Positions 9,389 through 62,137 of a DNA stretch of 64,000 nt are shown here, one piece after another. The stretch is taken from NCBI RefSeq assembly GCF_030010555.1, contig NZ_JASCQP010000026.1:62001-126000 (forward strand), given 5' to 3'. The position numbers and the translations under genes were made by a program. The notes below the pieces were generated by a model that worked only from the letters and a program-made list of their open reading frames with translations, was not told where the DNA came from and made no database searches. This stretch comes from Halomonas rhizosphaerae. GTDB lineage: Bacteria; Pseudomonadota; Gammaproteobacteria; Pseudomonadales; Halomonadaceae. The stretch's first letter is position 1, and each line of letters begins with the position of its first letter.

Positions 9389-11362
9389 TCAACCCTCGCT
9401 GTCACCCAGGTGGGCCTCCGCCTCCTCGGCGCTCTCGTAGATGTGCGGCGAGACGGCGCGCGCCTCCAGGGCGTGGCCGAGCTTGCGGCGCATGAAGCCG
9501 CTGGTGGTGTAGCGGGTCACCCGGGTGTAGAAGCGCTGCTCGAGGCCGCGCACCATCTCGGTGTAGGGGGCGAGCAGGGCGTCGTCGATGCGGCAGTGGT
9601 CGTAGTTGACGATGGCCTGGACGCGGCGGCCCAGCGGGGCGAGGCGGCGCTCGACCTCCTGCTCGATGGCGTCGATGTCCTCCGGGGAGGCGACCCGCAG
9701 GTGCTCGAAGTTGATGAAGAGGATGCCTTTCTCCTCGTCGAGGCTGAAGCGCTGCGCCAGCGGCCGGTCGAGCAGCTCCTCGGCGAGCCCCATGGGCGCG
9801 TCGCGGAAGATCCGCGCGTCCATCAGCCGGGGCGGCTCGGGCATCCGCGGGGTGAAGGCCATCAGTGCCAGGACGTCTCGCTCCAGGTCGACCCCCGGGG
9901 CGATCTCGGTGAGGGTGAGCCCCTCCGGGGTGAGCTCGAACACCGCCCGCTCGGTGACGTAGCAGACCGGCTTGCCGTCCGCGGCGGCCAGGGTCCCGCT
10001 GAAGGTGCGATGCTCCACCTCGGCGACGAACTTGCCCTGGCCGACCGGGGGCGCCTCGAGCCGTCCGTCGACGATGGCAAGCGCCTCCCGGGTGGCCACG
10101 AAGGTGCCCATGAACACCACCTTGCGGGCGTTCTGGCTGATGTTGATGAAGCCGCCGGCGCCGGCCAGCCGGGGGCCGAAGCGCGAGACGTTGACGTGGC
10201 CCGCGCCATCCACCTGGGCCATGCCCAGGAAGGCGATGTCGAGCCCGCCGCCGTCGTAGAAGTCGAACTGGGCCGGCTGGTCGATGATCGCCTGGGTGTT
10301 CAGCGCCGCGCCGAAGTCGAGCCCGCCGGCCGGCAGCCCGCCGATCACCCCGGGCTCGGCGGTCAGGGTCAGGTGCTCGAGCAGGCGCTCCTCGCTCGCC
10401 ACCGCGCCGACGCCCTCGGGCATGCCGATCCCCAGGTTGACCACGCTGTTGGGCCTGAGCTCGAAGGCCGCGCGCCGGGCGATGATCTTGCGGGCCGAGA
10501 GCGGCAGCGGCTCGGGCGTCGCCATGGGGGCGCGGATCTCGCCGGAGAAGGCCGGGTTGTAGGCGGTGCGGAAGGTCTGCCAGTGGTGGGCCGGATCCTC
10601 GCAGACCACTACGCAGTCGACCAGGATGCCGGGGATCTTCACGTCCTTGGGGTGCAGGGTGCCGTGCTCGGCGAGGCGCTCCACCTGCACGATCACCACG
10701 CCCCCGGAGTTGCGCACCGCCGTGGCGATGGCCAGCGCCTCCAGGGTCAGGGCCTCGCGCTCCATGCTGACGTTGCCCAGGGTGTCGGCGGTGGTGCCGC
10801 GCAGCAGCGCCACCTGCAGCGGCAGGGCCCGGTAGAAGAGGTACTCCTGGCCGTCGATGGGCAGCAGCGAGACGCGCTCCTCGAGGGTGACGTCGTTGAT
10901 CCGGCCACCGCCCAGGCGCGGGTCGACGAAGGTGCCCAGGCCGACGCGGGTGAGGGTGCCCGGCTTGCCGGCGGCAATGTCGCGGAAGAGGTGCGAGATC
11001 ACCCCCTGGGGCAGGTTCCAGGCCTGGATGCGCCCCTCGATGGCGAGCTTCTGCAGGGCGGGCACCAGCCCCCAGTGGCCCCCGATCACCTTCGCCACCA
11101 GCCCCTCGTGGCCCAGGTGATTGAGCCCGCGCTCCTTGCCGTCGCCCTGGCCGGCGGCATACATCAGGGTCAGGTCGTGGGGCTCGCCGGTCTCCAGGAA
11201 ACGCGCCTCCAGGGCCACCGCCAGCCCCTCGGCGAAGCCGATGCCGACGAAGCCGCCGGTCGCCAGGGCGTCGCCGTCACGGATCAGGTTCACGGCCTCG
11301 CGGGCGGAGACCACCTTGCCCTTCGCGGTGAAGGGCTGGCGGGAGAGCAGGGGATGGGGCAT
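9389..11362 (-). CDS. Acyl-CoA:acetate/3-ketoacid CoA-transferase (family I), with C-terminal extension
   Basis: This is a 657-residue fused alpha-beta family I CoA-transferase, like propionate CoA-transferase and YdiF. The N-terminal half holds the [16 protein letters not shown] nucleotide-like segment. The second half holds [14 protein letters not shown] and, shortly after, the [10 protein letters not shown] segment with the catalytic Glu of the EXGXXG motif. It would move CoA between short-chain acids through a glutamyl-CoA intermediate. Residues beyond about 520 form an extra 130-residue region not found in the approximately 520-residue YdiF type. ATG 11362 follows AGGA. No operon partner. 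Confidence 0.88.
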
Positions 11363-13239: not shown

Positions 13240-13356
13240 GAAGGTGCCGCAAGTCGGGGTGATGCGGGGTTTCCGCGGCGAGGCGATTGGCTACACTGGG
13301 GGCGCACCGGCGTGGCCGTTCGTCGCGCCGGCAGGTCATCGACAGGGAGAAGCATC

Positions 13357-14109
13357 ATGCGCATGAAGGGCAAGAACGTCATCGTCACCGGCGGCGCCAG
13401 CGGCATCGGTCTGGCCAGCGTCGAGCGCTGCCTGGAGGAGGGCGCCAGCGTGGTCATCGCCGACCTCGAGGGCGGCGACGGCCAGGCACAGGCCGCACGG
13501 CTCGATGACCGGTACGACGGCCGCTGCCTGTTCAAGGCGTGCGACGTCACCGACACCGCCCAGGTCGACCGCCTGTTCGCGGACACCGTGGCCGAGCTCG
13601 GCAGCGTGGAGGCGGTGTTCAACAACGCCGGCATCGGTGGCATCTGCCCCACCGACGAGCTTAGCGACGATGACTACCTGAAGGTCATCGACATCAACCT
13701 CAACGGGGTCTTCCGGGTGGCCCGGGCCGCGCTGCGGGTGATGTACCGCCAGGGCGGCGGCAGCATCGTCAACTGCGCCTCCATCCTCGGGGTCTTCGGG
13801 CAGTCCCAGACTGCCGCCTACACCGCCGCCAAGGGCGGGGTGGTCAACATGACCCGGACCCTGGCCATCGAGGCGGCGCCGAAGGGCGTGCGGGTCAACG
13901 CCATCGGCCCGGGCTATATCGACACCCCGCTGCTCGAGGCCCTGGACGATGACATGCTGCAGGGGCTGATCGGCCTGCATCCCATCGGCCGCCTGGGTCG
14001 CCCGGAGGAGATCGCCAACGCCTTCCTGTTCCTGGCCAGCGACGAGGCCAGCTTCGTCACCGGGGCCCACCTGCTGGTCGATGGCGGCTTCACCGCCGGC
14101 AAGTCCTGA
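13357..14109 (+). CDS. Short-chain dehydrogenase/reductase (SDR)
   Basis: This is a 250-residue classical SDR. The cofactor motif TGGASGIG lies at 11-18, NNAG near 90, an active-site Ser lies in NCASILG, and YTAAKGG gives the catalytic Tyr and Lys. The acidic residue after the second strand (ADLEGGDG) suggests NAD(H) over NADP(H). The substrate is unknown; close relatives are often named glucose 1-dehydrogenase or 3-ketoacyl reductase. ATG 13357 follows CAGGGAGAAG. It ends 4 bp from the convergent MFS gene, so it could act with the dicarboxylate operon, but that is speculation. Confidence 0.87.
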   Translation: MRMKGKNVIVTGGASGIGLASVERCLEEGASVVIADLEGGDGQAQAARLDDRYDGRCLFKACDVTDTAQVDRLFADTVAELGSVEAVFNNAGIGGICPTDELSDDDYLKVIDINLNGVFRVARAALRVMYRQGGGSIVNCASILGVFGQSQTAAYTAAKGGVVNMTRTLAIEAAPKGVRVNAIGPGYIDTPLLEALDDDMLQGLIGLHPIGRLGRPEEIANAFLFLASDEASFVTGAHLLVDGGFTAGKS

Positions 14110-14113
14110 GGCG

Positions 14114-15328
14114 TTATCCGGCGCCATTCTCGACCGGTAGCTGTTCGGCGGCCTCGCGCCGGGCGGCGAGGCGGGCCTGGCGGGTCAGCCACAGACCGAC
14201 CAGGGCCACGCCGGCGAGCACCGCGAAGACCGGCGTGTAGCGGCCGAACAGGCCGTGCAGCGCCGTGAACAGGGGCAGGCCGAGCAGCACGCCGCCATAG
14301 GTGAAGACCAGGCAGCCGCCGGCGGCATCGGCGATGCGCTCGGCCGGCGCCAGCTGGGTGATCTCGGCCATGAAGACGCCGTTCCAGCCTAGCGACGAGA
14401 GGCTCAGCAGGCACAGCAGGCCGGTGACCAGCGGCCTGGGCCAGGCCGGCGTCATGGTGGCCACCAGCAGGGCGCCGACGGCGGTGGTGCAGGCGATCAT
14501 GGCGAGGGTGGTCAGGCGGTCGCCCAGCAGGTCGCCGATCCAGCCCCAGCCGATGCGCCCGACGATCCCGACGACCTGCACGGCGGACATCACCAGCCCC
14601 GCCTCGACCAGGCCGAAGGCCAGGTCCTCCACCAGCAGCGCCACCGTGAAGGCAGAGACCGACAGCTGGATCGCCGAGAAGCAGAGGCTGAGCAGCGCCA
14701 CGTGGCGCAGTGAACGCTGGTGCCAGACGACGGCGAGCCCGGCGAAGGGGGTGGCCAGCCACGGCGTGTGGGGGGCGCGCTGATCGTCCCAGCGCGGGCG
14801 GGCGAGCTGCAGGGCGGCGATGCCGGCCAGGGCGAGGCCGGTGAGCATCAGCAGCCCCGCCTGCCAGCCGATGACCAGCGCCAGGGCGGGGGCGCTGGCG
14901 CCGGCGATCACCCCGCCCAGGGGCACGCCGGACTGCTTGAGGGAGAAGATCAGCCCGCGCCGCCCGGGTGGGGTGAAGCGCACCAGCAGCAGCGAGGCCG
15001 AGGGGTTGGTCAGGCCATAGCCGAGGCCGGCCAACAGCGAGGCGACGGCGAAGCTCGGCAGGGTGGGGATGGCCAGCAGCCCGGCCCCGCCGCCCAGCAG
15101 GGCCAGCGAGAGCTGGCTGGTACGACAGGGGCCCAGGCGCCGGGTCAGGGGGCCGCCCACCAGGGAGGTCAGCATGGCGCCGGCGAAGATCAGGCTGACC
15201 TGCAGGCCCACCGTGGCCGAGGAGACGCCCAGGGCCCTGGCCACCTCGGGCGCGATGGCGGCGGGAAACAGCGCCACCAGCGAGGAGAAGGCCAGGACCA
15301 GGGTGGTGGCGAGCAGGACGACCGGCAC
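14114..15328 (-). CDS. MFS transporter
   Basis: This 404-residue major facilitator protein has about 12 transmembrane helices. Loop 2-3 has GGPLTRRLGPCR, the second half has GRIGWGWIGDLLGDR in the matching loop, and the central loop is polar. The short spacing behind the HMG-CoA-lyase-like gene (6 bp) makes it the last gene of the gntR-caiB-dctMPQ-lyase operon. It may export a product or import a related acid; the operon already has a TRAP importer, so its role is unclear. Confidence 0.85.
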   Translation of the reverse strand: MPVVLLATTLVLAFSSLVALFPAAIAPEVARALGVSSATVGLQVSLIFAGAMLTSLVGGPLTRRLGPCRTSQLSLALLGGGAGLLAIPTLPSFAVASLLAGLGYGLTNPSASLLLVRFTPPGRRGLIFSLKQSGVPLGGVIAGASAPALALVIGWQAGLLMLTGLALAGIAALQLARPRWDDQRAPHTPWLATPFAGLAVVWHQRSLRHVALLSLCFSAIQLSVSAFTVALLVEDLAFGLVEAGLVMSAVQVVGIVGRIGWGWIGDLLGDRLTTLAMIACTTAVGALLVATMTPAWPRPLVTGLLCLLSLSSLGWNGVFMAEITQLAPAERIADAAGGCLVFTYGGVLLGLPLFTALHGLFGRYTPVFAVLAGVALVGLWLTRQARLAARREAAEQLPVENGAG

Positions 15329-15334
15329 GACGGC

Positions 15335-16267
15335 TCAGGCCACCCGGTCCCTGGGCACCTGCCGCAGGTGGCTGGCGGTCTGCCCCCCGGGGAGGGCGGC
15401 GATGGCATCGGCCGCCGCCAGCAGCCGAGACAGGTCGATCCCGCTGTCGACCTGGCCCCCGTTGAGGGCGTAGACGAGGTCTTCCGTGGCCGTGTTGCCG
15501 GTGGCCCCGGGGGCGAAGGGGCAGCCACCGAGGCCGGCGCAGGCGGCGTCCACCGTGGTGGCACCGTTATGGATAGCGAACAGCGCGTTGGCCACGCCCA
15601 TGCCGTAGGTGTCGTGGCCATGGAAGGCCCACGTCAGGCGCGGTCCGCGGTGTCGTGCGACCAGCTGGCGGAAGTGCTCGGCCACCCGGTAGGGCGTGGC
15701 GCGCCCGGTGGTGTCGCAGAGGGCGACCTCGAGGTGGAGGTCGCCGCAGAGGGCGCGGGCCCGTGAGAGGACGTCATCGACCTGGTGCCAGGCGATGCTG
15801 CCCTCGTAGGGACAGTCGAAGCTGGTGCCCAGGTCGAGGCGCAGGCAGGCATTGCCGTCGTGCTCGAGGAGCTCGACGATGCGGGCGAGATCCTCGAGGG
15901 ATTGCGCCACGCTGCGCCGCACGTTGGCCTGGTTGTGAGACTCGGAGACCGAGACCACGAAGACCAGCTCGCGAATGCCCTGGGCCAGGGCCAGTTCCGC
16001 GCCCCTGAGGTTGGGCACCAGGGCCGAGAAGCGCATGGCGGCCCGGTCGGCGAAGGCGGCGACCAGCGCCCCGGTATCGGCCATCTGCGGGATGGCTCGG
16101 GGGCTGACGAAGGAGCCGATCTCCATGCGGGTGATGCCGGCATCGATCAGCCGCTGGATGCAGCGGATCTTCTCGTCCGTGGGCAGCGGCTCGCGGATCG
16201 ACTGGAAACCGTCGCGCGGGGCGACCTCGACGATGTCCACCCGCTCGGGTGGCGACAGCAGGTTCAT
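15335..16267 (-). CDS. Hydroxymethylglutaryl-CoA lyase-like enzyme
   Basis: This 310-residue HMGL-like TIM-barrel protein keeps the metal and catalytic residues: Arg18-Asp19 in APRDGFQ, the FHGHDTYGMGVAN histidines, and the Cys of the signature AGLGGCPFAPGATGN. The classical PRDGLQN is PRDGFQS here, so the substrate may differ from HMG-CoA (for example citramalyl-CoA or another 3-hydroxy-3-methyl acyl-CoA). It would split the CoA ester into acetyl-CoA and a keto acid. The start codon overlaps the DctQ stop by 4 nt (ATGA), showing translational coupling. Confidence 0.88.
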   Translation of the reverse strand: MNLLSPPERVDIVEVAPRDGFQSIREPLPTDEKIRCIQRLIDAGITRMEIGSFVSPRAIPQMADTGALVAAFADRAAMRFSALVPNLRGAELALAQGIRELVFVVSVSESHNQANVRRSVAQSLEDLARIVELLEHDGNACLRLDLGTSFDCPYEGSIAWHQVDDVLSRARALCGDLHLEVALCDTTGRATPYRVAEHFRQLVARHRGPRLTWAFHGHDTYGMGVANALFAIHNGATTVDAACAGLGGCPFAPGATGNTATEDLVYALNGGQVDSGIDLSRLLAAADAIAALPGGQTASHLRQVPRDRVA

Positions 16268-16779
16268 CGGGTTTTCTCCTCGTCAGCGGCACCGGCCAGT
16301 CGTGGCACGGCCGCCAGGGCATCGATCAGGAACTGCAGGCCCAGGGCGGCGAAGCCGATCGGCAACAGCGCATAGGGATACACCATGGGGGTGCCCAGCG
16401 AGCTGGAGACCCGTTCGCCGTACTCGAGGGCCTGCAGGGCCATGATGCCGCCGCGCCACACCAGGATGGCGCAGAAGGCGAGACCCAGCAGCCCGGTGGC
16501 CAGGTCGATGGCGCCGCGCAGGCGCCGCGGCAGCTTGTCCTTGAAGTAGGTGATGCGGATATGGGCGTCGTGGCGCTGGGCCTCGGCGGCGCCGATCACG
16601 GCCAGGTAGACCAGCAGGAAGGAGTTGATCTCCAGGCTCCAGCTGGTCGGGGCCGTGAAGACGTAGCGCATGATGGCGTCGTAGCAGATCGACGCCATCA
16701 TGAACATCAGCACCGCCATCGACGTCCAGCGCAGGACGGCCAGCAGGCCGTCCCAGCTCCGCATGGCAGTCATGGTCAT
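16264..16779 (-). CDS. dctQ: TRAP transporter small permease (DctQ type)
   Basis: This 171-residue protein has four transmembrane helices in the DctQ pattern, with AIMRYVFTAPTSWSLEINSFLLVYLAVIG covering helices 1-2 (given as AIMRYVFTAPTSWSLEINSF and following). It is the small membrane subunit that works with DctM and the DctP binding protein in Na+-driven uptake of organic acids. ATG 16779 follows GAGGGAGAG. It lies 11 bp after dctP and overlaps the lyase gene. The order M-P-Q, with Q last, is less common than P-Q-M. Confidence 0.9.
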   Translation of the reverse strand: MTMTAMRSWDGLLAVLRWTSMAVLMFMMASICYDAIMRYVFTAPTSWSLEINSFLLVYLAVIGAAEAQRHDAHIRITYFKDKLPRRLRGAIDLATGLLGLAFCAILVWRGGIMALQALEYGERVSSSLGTPMVYPYALLPIGFAALGLQFLIDALAAVPRLAGAADEEKTR

Positions 16780-16790
16780 GGCACTCTCCC

Positions 16791-17837
16791 TCAGGCCTCG
16801 CCCAGGGCCAGGGCGATGGCCCGGTTGCCGACCTCCTCGCCGACCTCTTCCTTCCACATGTCCCAGACGTCCTGGACGCCGGCGTTGAAGGTCTCGAGGT
16901 CCTCCTCGGTGGGCTCGACGATCTCGACGCCGGCCTCCTCGACCTGGGGCCAGTACTCGTTGGGGTAGATGTCGTTGTTGCAGTGCTCGATGAAGTTCTC
17001 GTCGTACCAGTCGGCGGCCTTCTGCAGCACGGCACGGACGTCGTCGTCGAGGTTGTCCCAGGTGTCGCGCAGCATGAAGGGCGCCACCGAGAAGCCGGTG
17101 ATCGGCAGCTTGTAGCAGACCTTGAGCTGCTCCTGGAGGCTGCGGCCGATGACCGTCGAGATGTTGAAGACCCCCGCGTCCACGGTGCCGCGCTGCAGCG
17201 CCATGTAGGTCTCCGAGGAGGGAATGCGGGTCGCGCCCACGTTGTAGGGCTCGAAGGCCTGGGTGGCCTCGAAGCCGACGATGCGCACCTTCTTGCCGCG
17301 CACCTCGTCGAGGCGGCGGATCGGGCTCGCCTCGGTGCTCCACAGGTACTCCGGCTCGAGGATGCCCCCCCCGGAGGTGAGCATGTAGAGGTTCTCCTCG
17401 GCCAGCACCTCGTTGATCAGCTCCATCAGCGGGCTGCCCTGGCGCAGGCGCTCCGGATTGCGGTAGAGCTCGCCGACCACCCCGGGCAGGCCGGTCACGC
17501 CGAGGATGGGGATCGAGCGGGTGATGTAGGAGAAGGTGTGGAACATGAAATCGATGCTGCGCGCACGCAGCGCCGGCAGCTGCTCGTCCACCTTGAGCAG
17601 CTGGCCGGAGTCGTAGAACTCCACCGACAGGGCGTCACCGCCGTTCTCCTTGAGCATCTCCACGAAGCGGTTGGAGCCGTAGGTCAGCGCCTTGTAGGAG
17701 TCGGGCAGGTAGGTGACGCCGGTCAGGGTGGTGGCGGCGTGGCTGCGGGGCGCCAGCAGACTCTGGGTGCCGAACAGGGTGGCACCGGCGGTGGCGAAGG
17801 TGCCGTACTTCAGGACTTGGCGACGGGAAAGCGTCAT
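16791..17837 (-). CDS. dctP: TRAP transporter substrate-binding protein (DctP type), Tat signal
   Basis: This is a 348-residue periplasmic binding protein. The N-terminus has a twin-arginine signal (SRRQVLKYGTFATAGATLF) with a likely cleavage after SHA, so it may be exported folded. The body is DctP-like, with FMLRDTWDNLDDDVRAVLQK and a GSPLMELINEV segment. The conserved Arg that binds a substrate carboxylate is expected in the VRIVGFEATQAF region. It would bring an organic acid to DctQM. The substrate is unknown; the operon suggests a branched dicarboxylate. Confidence 0.9.
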   Translation of the reverse strand: MTLSRRQVLKYGTFATAGATLFGTQSLLAPRSHAATTLTGVTYLPDSYKALTYGSNRFVEMLKENGGDALSVEFYDSGQLLKVDEQLPALRARSIDFMFHTFSYITRSIPILGVTGLPGVVGELYRNPERLRQGSPLMELINEVLAEENLYMLTSGGGILEPEYLWSTEASPIRRLDEVRGKKVRIVGFEATQAFEPYNVGATRIPSSETYMALQRGTVDAGVFNISTVIGRSLQEQLKVCYKLPITGFSVAPFMLRDTWDNLDDDVRAVLQKAADWYDENFIEHCNNDIYPNEYWPQVEEAGVEIVEPTEEDLETFNAGVQDVWDMWKEEVGEEVGNRAIALALGEA

Positions 17838-17934
17838 GGTGAATCTCCTGCTTGTTGTTGTGATGAGTCGTTGTGATGGACCGTTGCGACGGTCGGTTGT
17901 GACGGTTCACTTCACTGACGTTGATACACCGGGG

Positions 17935-19224
17935 CTACATCAGCCCCGGCAACCACAGGCTGAGGCCGGGGAAGAACACGAACAGCATCAGCACGAGGAA
18001 CTGCACGGCGACGAAGGGCAGGGCGCTCCGGATGATCTCCTCCACCGAGAGTTCGGGACAGACCCCGCGCAGCGCATAGAGGTTGAGCCCCACCGGCGGG
18101 GTGACCACGGCGATCTCCAGGTTGAGCACCATGACGATGCCGAACCACAGCGGATCGTAGCCCAGGGCGGTGATCAGCGGCAGCAGCACCGGGGTGGTCA
18201 CCACGATCAGCGACACGGCATCGACGATCATGCCCAGCAGGATCAGCAGCAGCATCACCGCCACCAGGATCGCCCAGGCGGGCAGGCCGGTGGCGGTAAG
18301 CGCCTCGGTGAGCAGCTGCGGGACGCGTACCATGTTGAGGTAGTCGCCGAAGATCTTGGCGCAGCCGATGATCAGCAGGATGGCGCCGCTGATCCGCGCC
18401 GTGGTGGCCAGTATCTCCAGGAAGCGGCGCCAGCTGAGGCTGCGAAACACCAGGGTGGCGATCAGGAAGGCGCCGGCGGCGCCGATGCCCGCCGCCTCGC
18501 TGGGAGTGGCCAGGCCCGAGTAGATCGAGCCGAGCACCGCCACCACCAGCAGGCCGGCGTGCCAGATGTTGGCCAGGCTCGCCCAGCGCTGGCGCCAGGT
18601 GAAGTGCTCCTCGCTGGCCGGTGCCTCGGCCGGGTTCAGGCGCACGCGGATGTAGATGAACAGTGATAGGGCCAGCGCCAGCACGATGCCGGGCACGATG
18701 CCGCCGATGAATAGATCGGCCACCGAGACGCTGGAGACCGCGCCATAGATGATGAAGGGCACGCTGGGCGGGATCAGCATGGCCAGGGCACCGGCGCTGA
18801 CCACGGCGCCGGCGGCCAGCGAGCGGCTGTAGCCGCGCTGAAGCATCTGCGGTACGGCGATGGAGCCCACGGCGGCGACGCCGGCGAGGCTCACCCCCGA
18901 GACCGCGCCGAACATCGCCGAGGCGCCCACCGAGGAGATCGCCAGGCTGCCGCGCAGCCAGTTGAGCCAGCGCACCGCGGCGGTGAACAGGCTCGAACCT
19001 ACCGGGGTGGCGCCCAGGAAGTTTCCCATCAGGATGAACAGCGGCAGGGCGATCAGCTCGAAGGCGTTGAGCTGGCCGAAGAGCGACGAGGGCGCGAAGA
19101 AGAACGCCAGCGAGCCGCGGGCCATGTAGAGCCCGACCAGGCCGGAGAGGCCCAGGGCCAGGAAGATCGGGAAGCCGATGGTGATCAGCACGACCAGCAC
19201 GACCAGGACGATGACGGGATCCAT
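17935..19224 (-). CDS. dctM: TRAP transporter large permease (DctM type)
   Basis: This 429-residue protein has about 12 membrane helices of the DctM/ion-transporter family: IGFPIFLALGLSGLVGLYMA at the N-terminus, ALPLFILMGNFLG, and the MLIPPSVPFIIYG signature (P-P-S) of the re-entrant loop. It is the main transport channel of the TRAP system encoded here. It lies 12 bp behind the CoA-transferase gene. The 97-bp gap to dctP holds only imperfect GTTGTGA-type repeats. Confidence 0.92.
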   Translation of the reverse strand: MDPVIVLVVLVVLITIGFPIFLALGLSGLVGLYMARGSLAFFFAPSSLFGQLNAFELIALPLFILMGNFLGATPVGSSLFTAAVRWLNWLRGSLAISSVGASAMFGAVSGVSLAGVAAVGSIAVPQMLQRGYSRSLAAGAVVSAGALAMLIPPSVPFIIYGAVSSVSVADLFIGGIVPGIVLALALSLFIYIRVRLNPAEAPASEEHFTWRQRWASLANIWHAGLLVVAVLGSIYSGLATPSEAAGIGAAGAFLIATLVFRSLSWRRFLEILATTARISGAILLIIGCAKIFGDYLNMVRVPQLLTEALTATGLPAWAILVAVMLLLILLGMIVDAVSLIVVTTPVLLPLITALGYDPLWFGIVMVLNLEIAVVTPPVGLNLYALRGVCPELSVEEIIRSALPFVAVQFLVLMLFVFFPGLSLWLPGLM

Positions 19225-19236
19225 GGGGTGGCGTCC

Positions 19237-20454
19237 TCAGATCACGCCGTCGGCGCGCAGGGCGTCGAGGGCCTCGGGTGCCAGACCCAGCCAGCCGGTG
19301 AGCACCTGCTCGGTGTGCTCGCCCAGTGCCGGCCCCACCTCGCGGACGCGTCCCGGCGTGTCGGAGAGCCGCGGGAAGACGTTCTGCATGGGCAGCGGGC
19401 GGCCGTGGCGATCGGGCACCTCGACGATCGCCCCCCGGGCCTGGAAGTGCGGGTCATCGAGCATATCGGGCGCACGGTAGACGAGCCCCGCCGGGACGCC
19501 GGCCTCGGCCAGGATGTCGACCACCTGCTGGGCATCGTGCTCGCGCGTCCAGGCGGCGACCAGGTCATCGATGGCTGCCTGATGCTCGCCGCGGGCGCGG
19601 TGGGTGGCGTAGTCGGGGTGGTCGGCGAGGCCCGGCTGGCCCATCGCCTCGCAGAGGCGACGGAACACCGTGTCCTGGTTGGCGCCGATGATCACGTCGC
19701 GGCCATCGCGGGCCGGATAGGCGTTGGAGGGGGCGATCTTGGGCAGGAAGCTGCCGCTGCGCTCGCGCACCTTGCCGGCGCGGGCGTACTCCGGGACCAG
19801 GCTCTCCATCATCGCCAGCACCGACTCGAAGATGCTGCTGTCGACCACCTGGCCGCGACCGCTGCGGTGGCGCTGGTGCAGCGCCATCATGGTGCCCAGG
19901 GCGGCGTGCAGGCCCGCCAGGGTATCGCCCAGCGAGATGCCCACGCGCACCGGCGGGCGGTCCGGGTAGCCGCTCAGGTGGCGCAGGCCGCCCATGGCCT
20001 CGCACACCGAGGCGAAGCCGGCCCGCGAGGCGTAGGGGCCGTCCTGGCCGAAGCCGGTGACGCGCACCATCACCAGGCCGGGGTTGTGGCGGGAAAGCTC
20101 CTCGTACCCCAGCCCCCAGCGCTCCATGGTGCCGGGACGGAAGTTCTCGATGATGACATCGGCCTGGCTGGCCAGTTCGCGCAGCAGCGCCTGGCCGCGG
20201 GGCGTTCGCAGGTCCAGGGTCAGCGACTGCTTGTTGCGGCCGATGACGTTCCACCACAGCGGTTCGCCGGTGTCGCGGTCGGCCTCGCCCCACTGGCGCA
20301 TGGCGTCGCCCTTGCCGGGGGGCTCGACCTTGATCACCTGGGCGCCGAAGTCGGCCAGCACCTGGCCGCAGTAGGGTCCGGCGATCAGCTGGCCCAGTTC
20401 GAGGACCTTGATGTCGCTGAGGGGCGTCGGGGATTGGGTGTCATGGGGCGTCAT
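19237..20454 (-). CDS. CaiB/BaiF (family III) CoA-transferase
   Basis: This 405-residue family III CoA-transferase opens with the family's VLELGQLIAGPYCGQVLADF. The catalytic aspartate is Asp177 in VGISLGDTLAG. ENFRPGTMERWGLG and GQDGPYASRAGF are also typical. It resembles the succinyl-CoA:hydroxymethylglutarate (SUGCT), citramalate and itaconate transferase group. With an HMG-CoA-lyase-like enzyme and an organic-acid TRAP importer in one operon, it probably activates the imported acid by taking CoA from succinyl-CoA. The exact substrate is inferred, not shown. Confidence 0.9.
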   Translation of the reverse strand: MTPHDTQSPTPLSDIKVLELGQLIAGPYCGQVLADFGAQVIKVEPPGKGDAMRQWGEADRDTGEPLWWNVIGRNKQSLTLDLRTPRGQALLRELASQADVIIENFRPGTMERWGLGYEELSRHNPGLVMVRVTGFGQDGPYASRAGFASVCEAMGGLRHLSGYPDRPPVRVGISLGDTLAGLHAALGTMMALHQRHRSGRGQVVDSSIFESVLAMMESLVPEYARAGKVRERSGSFLPKIAPSNAYPARDGRDVIIGANQDTVFRRLCEAMGQPGLADHPDYATHRARGEHQAAIDDLVAAWTREHDAQQVVDILAEAGVPAGLVYRAPDMLDDPHFQARGAIVEVPDRHGRPLPMQNVFPRLSDTPGRVREVGPALGEHTEQVLTGWLGLAPEALDALRADGVI

Positions 20455-20478
20455 TGTTGTTGTGGTGCCTCTTCAGGG

Positions 20479-21198
20479 TCAGTGGGGGGAGGTCCCCGGC
20501 GGGGCGCCGTCGGAGACATCGGTTGACCGGACATGCAGGGCCTGGGCGGCCAGCAGGTGGGCGCGCATCACGTGCTCGGCCCACTCGGGGCTGCCGGCGA
20601 CGATGGCCTCGAGGATCTCGCGGTGGTGGCGCATGCTGCGGCGCAGGTTGGTGAGGTCGTAGTTGCCGAAGTTACGGCGGATCACCGAGGTGCGCACCAC
20701 GCTCTCCAGCACGCTGGCCAGGCGCTGGTTGTCGCTGGCCAGCACCAGCTCGCGGTGGAAGTCGTGGTTGAGGAGGGCGATCTCGTTGCGCACGCCGGGG
20801 TCCGTCTCGACGCGCTCGACGAGTGCCTCCATGCGTTCGGCCAGCGCCTCCAGGCGGCCCAGTCGTGCCGAGTCCATGCGCTGGCTGGCCAGGCGCACCG
20901 CCATGGGCTCGAGCACCAGGCGCAGCTCGAAGACCTCGCGGGCATCCTTCTCGGTCCAGGCGACCACCCGGGCGCCATGGTGGGGGATCGCCTCGAGCCA
21001 GCCCTCGGAGACCAGCTCGCGCAGCGCCTCGCGCACCGGGGTGCGGCTGACCTCGAGCTCGCGGGCCACGCTGGCCTCGCGGATGTAGTCGTGCGGCCGG
21101 TAGTTGCCGTCGAGGATGCGCTGCTTGATCGCCTCGTGAACCTGGGCGGTGGCCGTTCTCACGACGGGGGCGGCATCGAGGTGTCGGGTAGTGCTCAC
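20479..21198 (-). CDS. GntR-family regulator with FCD domain
   Basis: This FadR-subfamily regulator has a winged helix at its N-terminus (IKQRILDGNYRPHDYIREAS, then ELEVSRTPVREALREL) and a C-terminal all-helical FCD ligand domain. FCD metal ligands are visible as EVFELRLVLEP and the NHDFHREL and MRHHREIL histidines. GTG 21198 (239 residues) is preferred because AGGA lies 8 nt upstream. The in-frame ATG at 21219 lacks a ribosome site and lies within a palindromic operator. It is the first gene of the minus-strand operon and is probably an autorepressor released by the imported acid or its CoA ester. Confidence 0.88.
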   Translation of the reverse strand: MSTTRHLDAAPVVRTATAQVHEAIKQRILDGNYRPHDYIREASVARELEVSRTPVREALRELVSEGWLEAIPHHGARVVAWTEKDAREVFELRLVLEPMAVRLASQRMDSARLGRLEALAERMEALVERVETDPGVRNEIALLNHDFHRELVLASDNQRLASVLESVVRTSVIRRNFGNYDLTNLRRSMRHHREILEAIVAGSPEWAEHVMRAHLLAAQALHVRSTDVSDGAPPGTSPH

Positions 21199-21212
21199 GG
21201 CAGATGTCCTGG

Positions 21213-21224
21213 ATTGCATGCAAT
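21213..21224. promoter_or_regulatory. Palindromic operator 1 (GntR/FCD type)
   Basis: ATTGCATGCAAT is a perfect 12-bp palindrome just upstream of the GTG start of the GntR-type gene. TTGCATGCAA fits the general dyad pattern bound by FadR-subfamily regulators. It pairs with an identical 10-bp core at 21277, 63 bp away. Confidence 0.6.
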
Positions 21225-21276
21225 TTACAAGGTAGGAGAGATGCCGTGCGCCGTATCACTAGACTTTAGGCTAGAG

Positions 21277-21286
21277 TTGCATGCAA
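21277..21286. promoter_or_regulatory. Palindromic operator 2 (GntR/FCD type)
   Basis: This second TTGCATGCAA core lies 63 bp from the first, about six helical turns, so both sites face the same side of the DNA. The pair could support looping or cooperative autorepression of the downstream operon. Confidence 0.58.
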
Positions 21287-21455: not shown

Positions 21456-21531
21456 TGGTGCCGCAAAGAGGAGTCGAACCTCCGACCTACGCATTACGAG
21501 TGCGTTGCTCTACCAGCTGAGCTATTGCGGC
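21456..21531 (-). tRNA. tRNA-Thr (anticodon CGU)
   Basis: This is a 76-nt cloverleaf on the minus strand. The acceptor stem is GCCGCAA / TTGCGGC with discriminator A and encoded CCA. The D-arm is AGCTCAGCTGGTAGAGC, the anticodon loop is CTCGTAA (anticodon CGT, reading ACG), and the T-arm is GGAGGTTCGACTCCT-like. Confidence 0.96.
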
Positions 21532-61168: not shown

Positions 61169-62137
61169 ATGAACTCTGCGCTGAAATGGATGCCGCTGGT
61201 GGCGGTGATCGCCCTGGCCACGGCCGGCTGTGCCCGTGATGGCTTCTATCATGATCGCAACCTCGACTACGGCGAGGCCGAGGAGTCTGCGCCCCTGGTG
61301 CTGCCGGATGGCCGCGATGCCGAGCGCTACCGGGATGCCATGCCGGTCCCCGAGGTGAGCGGCACGCGGCCCGCCGAGGATGGCGTGGTCGAGGCACCGC
61401 TCCCCCAGGCCCTGTCGCCCGGGCGCAGCATGGATCGAGGCTATGTCGAGCGTCGCGCGGTCGGCGACGAGCGCTGGCTGGTGGTGGGCGCCGAACCGGC
61501 AACGGTCTGGCCGGAGCTCGAGCGCTTCGTGCGCAGCCGCGGCCTGACCGTCACCGCCAGTGACTCCCATCGCGGCATCCTGGAAACCGACCAGGCCAGG
61601 CTCAGCGTCCGCCCGGCGCTGCGCAGCGGCGACAGCGAGATACGCTGCGAGCAGGGCGGGACCACGCAGGCCGCCTGCCTGACGGCACTGGAACGCCACT
61701 TCGAGGGGGTCAGTGCTTCGTCGAGCGCCGCCTCGCTGGCTGCCCAGCGGCCCGATGCCCAGAATCCTGCCAGGTTCGAGCAGCGTGGCGACGACTGGCA
61801 GGTGATCCTGCCCTTCGCGGCGGACCGTCTCTGGGCCGAACTGAGCCACCAGCTGGAGCTCGACTTCGCGGTCGAGGGCCGTCGTGAGCTGCTCGAGCGC
61901 GACCCCGCCGCGCGCAGCTTCCTGGTGGGCTACCTGACCCAGAGCGAGCGGGAGCGGGGCCTGTTGCAATCGCTTGCGACCCTCAACCTGGGCGAGTCGA
62001 CCCGGCAGGTCCGCCTGGTGCTGGAGGCCCGTGGCCCCGAGGAGACCGTGCTCAAGGCGCAGGGTGCCGGCGAGGAAGCGCTCTCCACCGAGGACCAGCG
62101 CGAGCTGCTCGAGCGGGTGGCGGGCCTGCTGCGCTGA
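61169..62137 (+). CDS. bamC: Outer membrane assembly lipoprotein BamC
   Basis: This is a 322-residue lipoprotein. The signal (WMPLVAVIALATAGCARDG) has a lipobox ending ATAGC, with lipidated Cys at about residue 18. An unstructured N-terminal lasso with DGRDAERYRDAMPVPE follows (the part that binds BamD), then two helix-grip domains (WLVVGAEPATVWPELERFVR; WQVILPFAADRLWAELSHQL). It stabilises the BAM complex for beta-barrel insertion. It is coupled to the next gene by TGATG. Confidence 0.9.
   Translation: MNSALKWMPLVAVIALATAGCARDGFYHDRNLDYGEAEESAPLVLPDGRDAERYRDAMPVPEVSGTRPAEDGVVEAPLPQALSPGRSMDRGYVERRAVGDERWLVVGAEPATVWPELERFVRSRGLTVTASDSHRGILETDQARLSVRPALRSGDSEIRCEQGGTTQAACLTALERHFEGVSASSSAASLAAQRPDAQNPARFEQRGDDWQVILPFAADRLWAELSHQLELDFAVEGRRELLERDPAARSFLVGYLTQSERERGLLQSLATLNLGESTRQVRLVLEARGPEETVLKAQGAGEEALSTEDQRELLERVAGLLR

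Follow-up and report, generated by a model that had tools for sequence, protein, structure and literature searches.

Which acid is taken up and cleaved by an operon that joins a TRAP transporter, a CoA-transferase and a relative of hydroxymethylglutaryl-CoA lyase? The question is raised by seven genes on the minus strand of a 64,000-nucleotide stretch of the halophilic bacterium Halomonas rhizosphaerae (the window; positions 62,001 to 126,000 of contig NZ_JASCQP010000026.1, contig C20 of genome G000 in our numbering). Read from 21219 to 14114, they encode a GntR/FCD regulator, a family III CoA-transferase (CaiB), the TRAP proteins DctM, DctP and DctQ, an HMGL-type lyase and a major facilitator superfamily (MFS) transporter (Table 1). 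A preliminary description had given these genes, positions and families, and they hold in our analysis: all seven reading frames are open and intact, and Pfam and NCBIfam profile searches assign the products to these families. The families, the catalytic residues and the conserved linkage give good support to the route it had drawn from them, in which import is followed by CoA transfer and cleavage by the lyase. As to the substrate, the sequence data point to catabolism of a branched malate-type acid, most likely (R)-citramalate, an assignment that we would place just short of an even chance. Both citramalate and 3-hydroxy-3-methylglutarate (HMG) had been suggested earlier; citramalate is favoured by an aconitase-family gene in related operons and by stereochemistry, whereas HMG is disfavoured and stays as a rival.

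The acyl-CoA lyase and the CoA-transferase

The lyase matches PF00682 and keeps all seven residues that were checked, R41, D42, E72, H233, H235, C266 and N275 in human HMGCL numbering, which we take to be the catalytic and metal residues. Together these place it among the HMGL-type (DRE-TIM) acyl-CoA lyases, a family that cleaves 3-hydroxyacyl-CoA by the DRE-TIM mechanism. Its motifs are PRDGFQS, DTTGR, HGH and GGCPFAPGATGN. Relatives were collected by a lyase search of named genomes, from which the best 80 of 569 were kept; the 42 nearest (loci L006-L047) and the window make up the operon clade. All 43 lyases of this clade carry PRDGFQS, with L44F and N46S relative to the LiuE type and human HMGCL. 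W81 is also replaced across the clade, mostly by Ala (Ile in L016), and V208 by Arg in 42 of the 43 (His in L024). In a quick tree, human HMGCL, LiuE PA2011 and L147, a lyase from another contig (C39) of the same genome, form a single clade with an SH-aLRT (approximate likelihood ratio test) value of 100, and the window lyase is placed elsewhere. The window lyase thus shares with PA2011 and human HMGCL the fold family, the seven checked residues and a score above the NF004283 cut-off, but differs in clade, in four residues (L44F, N46S, W81A and V208R) and in its linkage to transferase and TRAP genes. By its clade, and by PRDGFQS in place of PRDGLQN, it falls outside the leucine-pathway (LiuE) type. 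Judged by alignment and tree, PRDGFQS is the signature of a subfamily other than that of the leucine-pathway lyase, and L147, whose gene is separate from the operon, is likely the leucine-type lyase of this genome. This bears out the earlier hint that PRDGFQS signals a non-standard enzyme. Near L147, an acyl-CoA-dehydrogenase-like frame was read by eye. The genome also has a third HMGL gene in a further CaiB-HMGL pair (L146, contig C17, 5525-7659), and this lyase is of the HNTRG subfamily.

The transferase belongs to family III, as indicated by its PF02515 match and by the family Asp within the RVGISLGDTLAG segment, presumably the catalytic residue, which aligns to the nearest solved structures, 4ed9, 10uh and human SUGCT (9br6). 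It shares the domain and the Asp segment with SUGCT and other family III enzymes, yet it lies below every listed equivalog cut-off, and far below those for succinate:glutarate (298 against 750 bits) and succinyl-CoA:mesaconate (263 against 700 bits) transfer.

These two enzymes bring in the first alternative, in which HMG is imported by the TRAP system, converted to HMG-CoA and cleaved to acetyl-CoA and acetoacetate. The best-scoring subfamily model of the lyase is indeed hydroxymethylglutaryl-CoA lyase, and SUGCT is named succinate--hydroxymethylglutarate CoA-transferase in the PDB. In addition, a short-chain dehydrogenase/reductase (SDR) gene adjoins the operon and a fused acetate/3-oxoacid-type (FadX-like) CoA-transferase gene lies about 2.8 kb downstream (385 bits, cut-off 750); both are also close to the operon in L007 and L008. 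Against HMG, the lyase departs from the LiuE type at active-site loop positions, and two genes of related operons argue in the same direction.

The aconitase-family gene of related operons

Thirty-four of the 42 nearest loci share the order CaiB-DctM-DctP-DctQ-lyase, with examples ranging from Halomonas to Roseobacteraceae and Aurantimonadaceae, a recurrence not attributable to chance. In three of the remaining eight (L020, L029 and L042) a short contig ends close to the lyase; on L036, also a short contig, the transferase immediately precedes the lyase, and at L025 the lyase is present but the other operon genes are missing. A TctA-type transporter replaces TRAP between transferase and lyase in L035 and L039 (only the L035 protein was scanned), and L038 has a regulator, CaiB matched as two pieces, the aconitase-family gene and the lyase. 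L022 (Halomonas olivaria TYRC17), counted among the 34, has DctM and DctP matched piecewise, and its operon looks frameshifted. The MFS gene is present in 10 of the 42 loci and is an accessory transporter gene. Within Halomonadaceae, a close lyase orthologue (E < 1e-140) was found in 23 of 151 genomes, this one included, and a 24th has a lyase of 56% identity.

An extra aconitase-family gene (ACN) of about 645 codons is present in 22 of 39 scored operon-clade loci (L025, L029, L036 and L042 were excluded), and the window is among the 17 without it. In 19 loci its neighbours are DctQ and the lyase, in L038 the transferase and the lyase, and in L040 the regulator and the transferase; in L020, on a cut contig, it precedes the lyase. 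ACN scores 305 bits with PF00330 and 814 bits with the aconitate hydratase model NF005558 (cut-off 612).

Arg580 of mitochondrial aconitase has a role in substrate binding; a literature search on this residue found nothing. In the ACN proteins of this group, the corresponding position is Trp496 (numbered as in L007, from Halomonas ventosae), an alignment made through the Arg of a less related ACN. The loop segment alone gives only 3.8 bits, and the register is fixed by the common TTDHI. Residue 542, directly after GSSRE, is Asn in this group and aligns to aconitase His646. Among 67 distinct ACN sequences, 44 have Trp/Asn and 23 have Arg/His, with none mixed. Of the Trp-type genes, 40 of 44 have an HMGL gene at a distance of up to 8 kb, against none of the 23 Arg-type genes. 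Many of the Trp-type sequences were fetched through the lyase, which forces linkage; in searches started from ACN, the HMGL neighbour was found for 24 of 28 examined Trp-type genes and for 0 of 22 Arg-type genes, counts that leave out 19 further matches without locus. The absence of HMGL is weaker evidence for the Arg-type contigs L173, L174, L175 and L183, which are shorter than 9 kb. The relatives' ACN shares the aconitase family, GSSRE and the substrate-recognition loop with isopropylmalate/citramalate isomerase and aconitase, and differs in being a single 645-aa chain, in the Trp at the Arg580 position and in its catabolic-type operon. Its sequence, of the aconitase family with a loop free of the aconitase Arg, is that expected of a citramalate/isopropylmalate-type hydratase, and the loss of Arg suggests a substrate without a third carboxylate. 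PMC7308503 describes two regions of the domain as critical for the substrate, GSSRE and the substrate-recognition loop, and states that the loop sets preference.

The loop also bears on a tricarboxylate substrate (citrate, aconitate or 2-methylcitrate), in which case ACN would simply be an aconitase and the lyase would act on citryl-CoA. The NF005558 score of ACN and the TctA-type transporter in L035 and L039 fit such a substrate. Every lyase-adjacent ACN seen, however, has Trp at the Arg580 position, and a substrate of the tricarboxylic acid cycle would need no CoA activation, so that we regard this alternative as quite improbable.

The substrates of aconitase, 2-methylcitrate dehydratase, homoaconitase and isopropylmalate isomerase are 2-hydroxy acids that bear a neighbouring carboxylate, and HMG is not of this kind. 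Because aconitase-type hydratases make 2-hydroxy-1,2-diacids, ACN favours a malate-type substrate over HMG, and a CoA ester that can be both cleaved by an HMGL-type lyase and supplied by an aconitase-type enzyme is a 2-alkylmalyl-CoA. PMC8184944 names these four enzymes as the functional members of the aconitase superfamily, with AcnX as the outlier. A partner of this family in 22 of 39 loci is hard to reconcile with a 3-hydroxyglutarate. The second gene is that for an AceE-like homodimeric-type 2-oxoacid dehydrogenase E1, beside the CoA-transferase in three Roseobacteraceae (L044:2507-4828, L045:1927-4422 and L046:2357-4837). Its end meets the transferase start in L044 and L046, and the two genes are divergent in L045; the L044 protein, the only one scanned, scores 180 bits against a cut-off of 860. 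The E1 gene fits a 2-oxo acid product, possibly one other than pyruvate, and speaks against HMG. Taken together, HMG is an unlikely substrate. In two of these three loci an Lrp-like frame was seen by eye near the E1 gene. In Aurantimonas coralicida, a PrpB-like gene (methylisocitrate lyase family, below cut-off; L031:1867-2724) separates the CoA-transferase from the divergent regulator.

ACN appears to come and go. It was not found in the window or elsewhere in the G000 genome, where the matches are fragments of other aconitases at 29-44%. Of the 17 genomes whose locus is without it, 15 gave no orthologue; the other two have a homologue elsewhere, of 71% (G157, Trp type) and 60% (G151, Arg type). 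On the quick lyase tree, its presence and absence need 11-12 changes, 8 of them forced by well-supported branches. In L030 (Aurantimonas marina), what is left of ACN is its first and last codons, joined in frame before the lyase; the relative L031 keeps the whole gene, so that the loss in L030 is real. In the window, simple local deletion is uncertain because the 50-bp DctQ/lyase junction fails to align to that of L006, which is about 2.0 kb long, and resembles the junction of L018, which is also without ACN. Exchange with an ACN-less allele seems as likely here as local deletion. No decay following the loss was seen in the omega values or reading frames of the window operon. The combination of transferase, HMGL lyase and Trp-type ACN also occurs without DctPQM, in L144 (a second cluster of Halomonas sp. 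A40-4, near TAXI-TRAP genes), in L169 (with a sodium:solute symporter) and in L223, which was assigned by similar arrangement and sequence.

A proposed (R)-citramalate route

From these data the following pathway can be proposed. The TRAP system would import the dianion, as is the function of its family, and the CoA-transferase would put CoA on the CH2-COOH carboxyl, with succinyl-CoA or the product acetyl-CoA as candidate donors. The lyase, with its catalytic residues in place, would deprotonate the tertiary 3-hydroxyl and release acetyl-CoA and a 2-oxo acid, which would be pyruvate if the substrate is citramalyl-CoA. Hydration of citraconate by an isopropylmalate isomerase-type enzyme gives (R)-citramalate; in many relatives the altered-loop ACN may feed the pathway from the unsaturated acid in this way, and the window genome, without ACN, would use the hydroxy acid only.

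The stereochemistry is consistent with this. According to PMC6689899, the HMGL-type enzyme PA2011 is specific for (S)-HMG-CoA and PA0883 for (R)-HMG-CoA, and both (S)-citramalyl-CoA and (R)-HMG-CoA are substrates of Rv2498c; PA0883 is the (S)-citramalyl-CoA lyase Ccl according to PMC9875883. Because the HMGL type and the Ccl type thus take opposite HMG-CoA enantiomers, the priority rules lead us to infer that the HMGL pocket should hold (R)-citramalyl-CoA. Rv2498c and CLYBL, lyases of (S)-citramalyl-CoA and (R)-HMG-CoA, are alike in overall reaction type, with mirror stereochemistry expected for the window lyase; their CitE-like family is described in PMC6689899 as having no sequence similarity to HMG-CoA lyases.

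This geometry also bears on the degradation of itaconate or (S)-citramalate as in the Pseudomonas and Burkholderia clusters. The Pseudomonas cluster PA0878-PA0886 (Ict, Ich, Ccl and a transporter) resembles the window operon in having dedicated uptake, a CoA-transferase and cleavage to acetyl-CoA and a keto acid, functions set out in PMC9875883, and PA0884 is a TRAP binding protein by its structure title. Its Ccl, however, is CitE-type and (S)-specific, whereas the window operon has an HMGL-type lyase, with no itaconyl-CoA hydratase (Ich) gene and no CitE-type lyase among its genes; the HMGL geometry is opposite to (S)-citramalyl-CoA. We consider itaconate or (S)-citramalate very improbable.

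A further candidate substrate is another 2-alkylmalate or malate, namely 2-isopropylmalate or 2-ethylmalate (giving 2-oxoisovalerate or 2-oxobutyrate), 2,3-dimethylmalate, or (R)-malate from maleate. The chemistry and the logic of ACN are identical to those for citramalate, the loop Trp suits a hydrophobic group, and the dedicated E1 of L044-L046 would suit a 2-oxo acid other than pyruvate. No recurring gene for further branched-chain steps was seen at the loci, where most neighbours were not family-searched, and the stereochemical and literature backing is weaker than for citramalate. Such substrates are accordingly improbable in our view.

Several observations weigh against (R)-citramalate and its linked hydratase. 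Loci with ACN are barely more clustered on the tree than in shuffled labelings, 75 of 500 of which were as low, and nearly half of the clade is without ACN. Within about 7 kb of four Trp-type ACN genes (L219-L222) there is neither an HMGL nor a CaiB gene, and ACN may therefore also act without such a lyase. Trp-type ACN looks like one clade by identity (at least 65% to L007, against at most 61% for the others), so that the loop change may be a single event. The lyases of L144 and L169 belong to a different HMGL subfamily (HNTRG against HDTYG in the window type), so that two kinds of lyase are found in the transferase-lyase-ACN combination. For pyruvate itself as the product, a dedicated E1 gene would be unexpected, and the FadX-like CoA-transferase and SDR genes near the operon, L007 and L008 included, would suit acetoacetate, and hence HMG. 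Finally, a ligand or activity was found for no member of the operon. No listed equivalog model of the transferase reaches its cut-off, and the fold of DctP, whose top 50 matches are nearly tied at 13-20% identity, gives no substrate. As a separate observation, three of the unlinked ACN genes L219-L222 lie beside a GntR gene 56-57% identical to that of the window, and L219 and L220 contain a frame that, by eye, looks like the L144 TAXI binding protein.

At the level of genes, we tentatively propose a route for (R)-citramalate and citraconate, which we see as possible rather than probable. Its enzymes would be a lyase of HMGL type acting on (R)-citramalyl-CoA, a CoA-transferase of family III and a citraconate hydratase that resembles aconitase but has Trp for Arg580, and it would mirror the known itaconate/(S)-citramalate route in stereochemistry. 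The hydratase cassette would have come or gone about 11 times among relatives, extending the diet from the hydroxy acid to the unsaturated acid or restricting it again. In the literature searched, no report was found that links an HMGL-type lyase to citramalate or citraconate breakdown, or that gives a gene set for the (R) side; for HMG-CoA lyase together with citramalyl-CoA, the search gave PMC6689899 alone, in which the lyase is CitE-like. According to PMC9875883, PA0878-PA0883 moved into P. putida gave no use of (R)-citramalate or citraconate; if the proposal is right, it would supply genes for this uncovered branch. It would also show the re-aiming of an HMG-CoA-lyase-like enzyme, correct annotations in marine and saline bacteria that read 'hydroxymethylglutaryl-CoA lyase' or 'aconitate hydratase', and offer a small regulator-operator pair.

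Operon layout, transporter and regulator

The preliminary description had called the spacing tight, with several overlaps. The gaps are mostly 6-24 bases with one of 97 (in bases, GntR-24-CaiB-12-DctM-97-DctP-11-DctQ-(-4)-lyase-6-MFS), which agrees with tight spacing; there is a single overlap, of 4 nt, between DctQ and the lyase. Compared with L006 (94% DNA identity), omega is 0.07-0.46 across the seven genes, highest in DctQ, so that the operon is maintained by purifying selection. A promoter and terminator scan gave nothing beyond shuffled-sequence level.

Table 1. Positions in the window of the operon genes, the putative operator and nearby genes
Feature	Position	Strand	Remarks
Probable twin operator TTGCATGCAA	21214-21223 and 21277-21286 (span 21214..21286)	.	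palindrome, 63 bp apart
GntR/FCD transcriptional regulator	20479..21219	-	Pfam GntR 68 bits, FCD 88 bits
Family III (CaiB/BaiF) CoA-transferase	19237..20454	-	CoA_transf_3 (PF02515) 442 bits
TRAP large permease DctM	17935..19224	-	PF06808 317 bits, TIGR00786 373 bits
TRAP solute-binding protein DctP	16791..17837	-	PF03480 103 bits
TRAP small permease DctQ, 171 aa	16264..16779	-	PF04290 117 bits; ATG 16779 by sequence reading
HMGL-type (DRE-TIM) acyl-CoA lyase	15335..16267	-	NF004283 283 bits (cut-off 246); PF00682 146.8 bits
MFS transporter, last gene	14114..15328	-	PF07690 (MFS_1) 120 bits
DctQ/lyase junction, 50 bp, ACN position in many relatives	16268..16317	-	comparison with L006, L018
SDR gene	13312-14109	+	convergent with MFS stop, 4 bases apart
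FadX-like CoA-transferase gene	9389-11362		
tRNA-Thr (CGT) gene	21456-21531	-	directly upstream of operon

With DctP, DctQ and DctM all present, the transporter is a complete TRAP system. DctP has a twin-arginine-like leader by eye, and its Arg185 and Arg204 are invariant in 12 of 12 aligned orthologues. A sequence search for its ligand gave weak matches only. Its AlphaFold2 model (mean pLDDT 85.7) resembles TRAP binding proteins, with a best Z of 31.6, and the top 50 matches include isethionate, pyroglutamate and ectoine binding proteins and PA0884.

The GntR/FCD regulator may switch the operon by binding the twin TTGCATGCAA sites, as their conservation and place suggest. The pattern TTGYATRCAA occurs 2 times in the window against 0.04 expected. 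It is found at 3 places in the 4.07 Mb genome, two of them at this operon, and a reversed control pattern has 2 places, so that the genome count alone proves little; what counts is how close the two sites are and that such pairs recur. A scan of 23 related loci for the exact pattern upstream of GntR gave a pair 60-64 bp apart in 13, a single site in 6 and none in 4. The GntR start is probably a little downstream of 21219 because that ATG falls inside the first operator. Directly upstream of the operon, on the same strand, is a tRNA-Thr gene.

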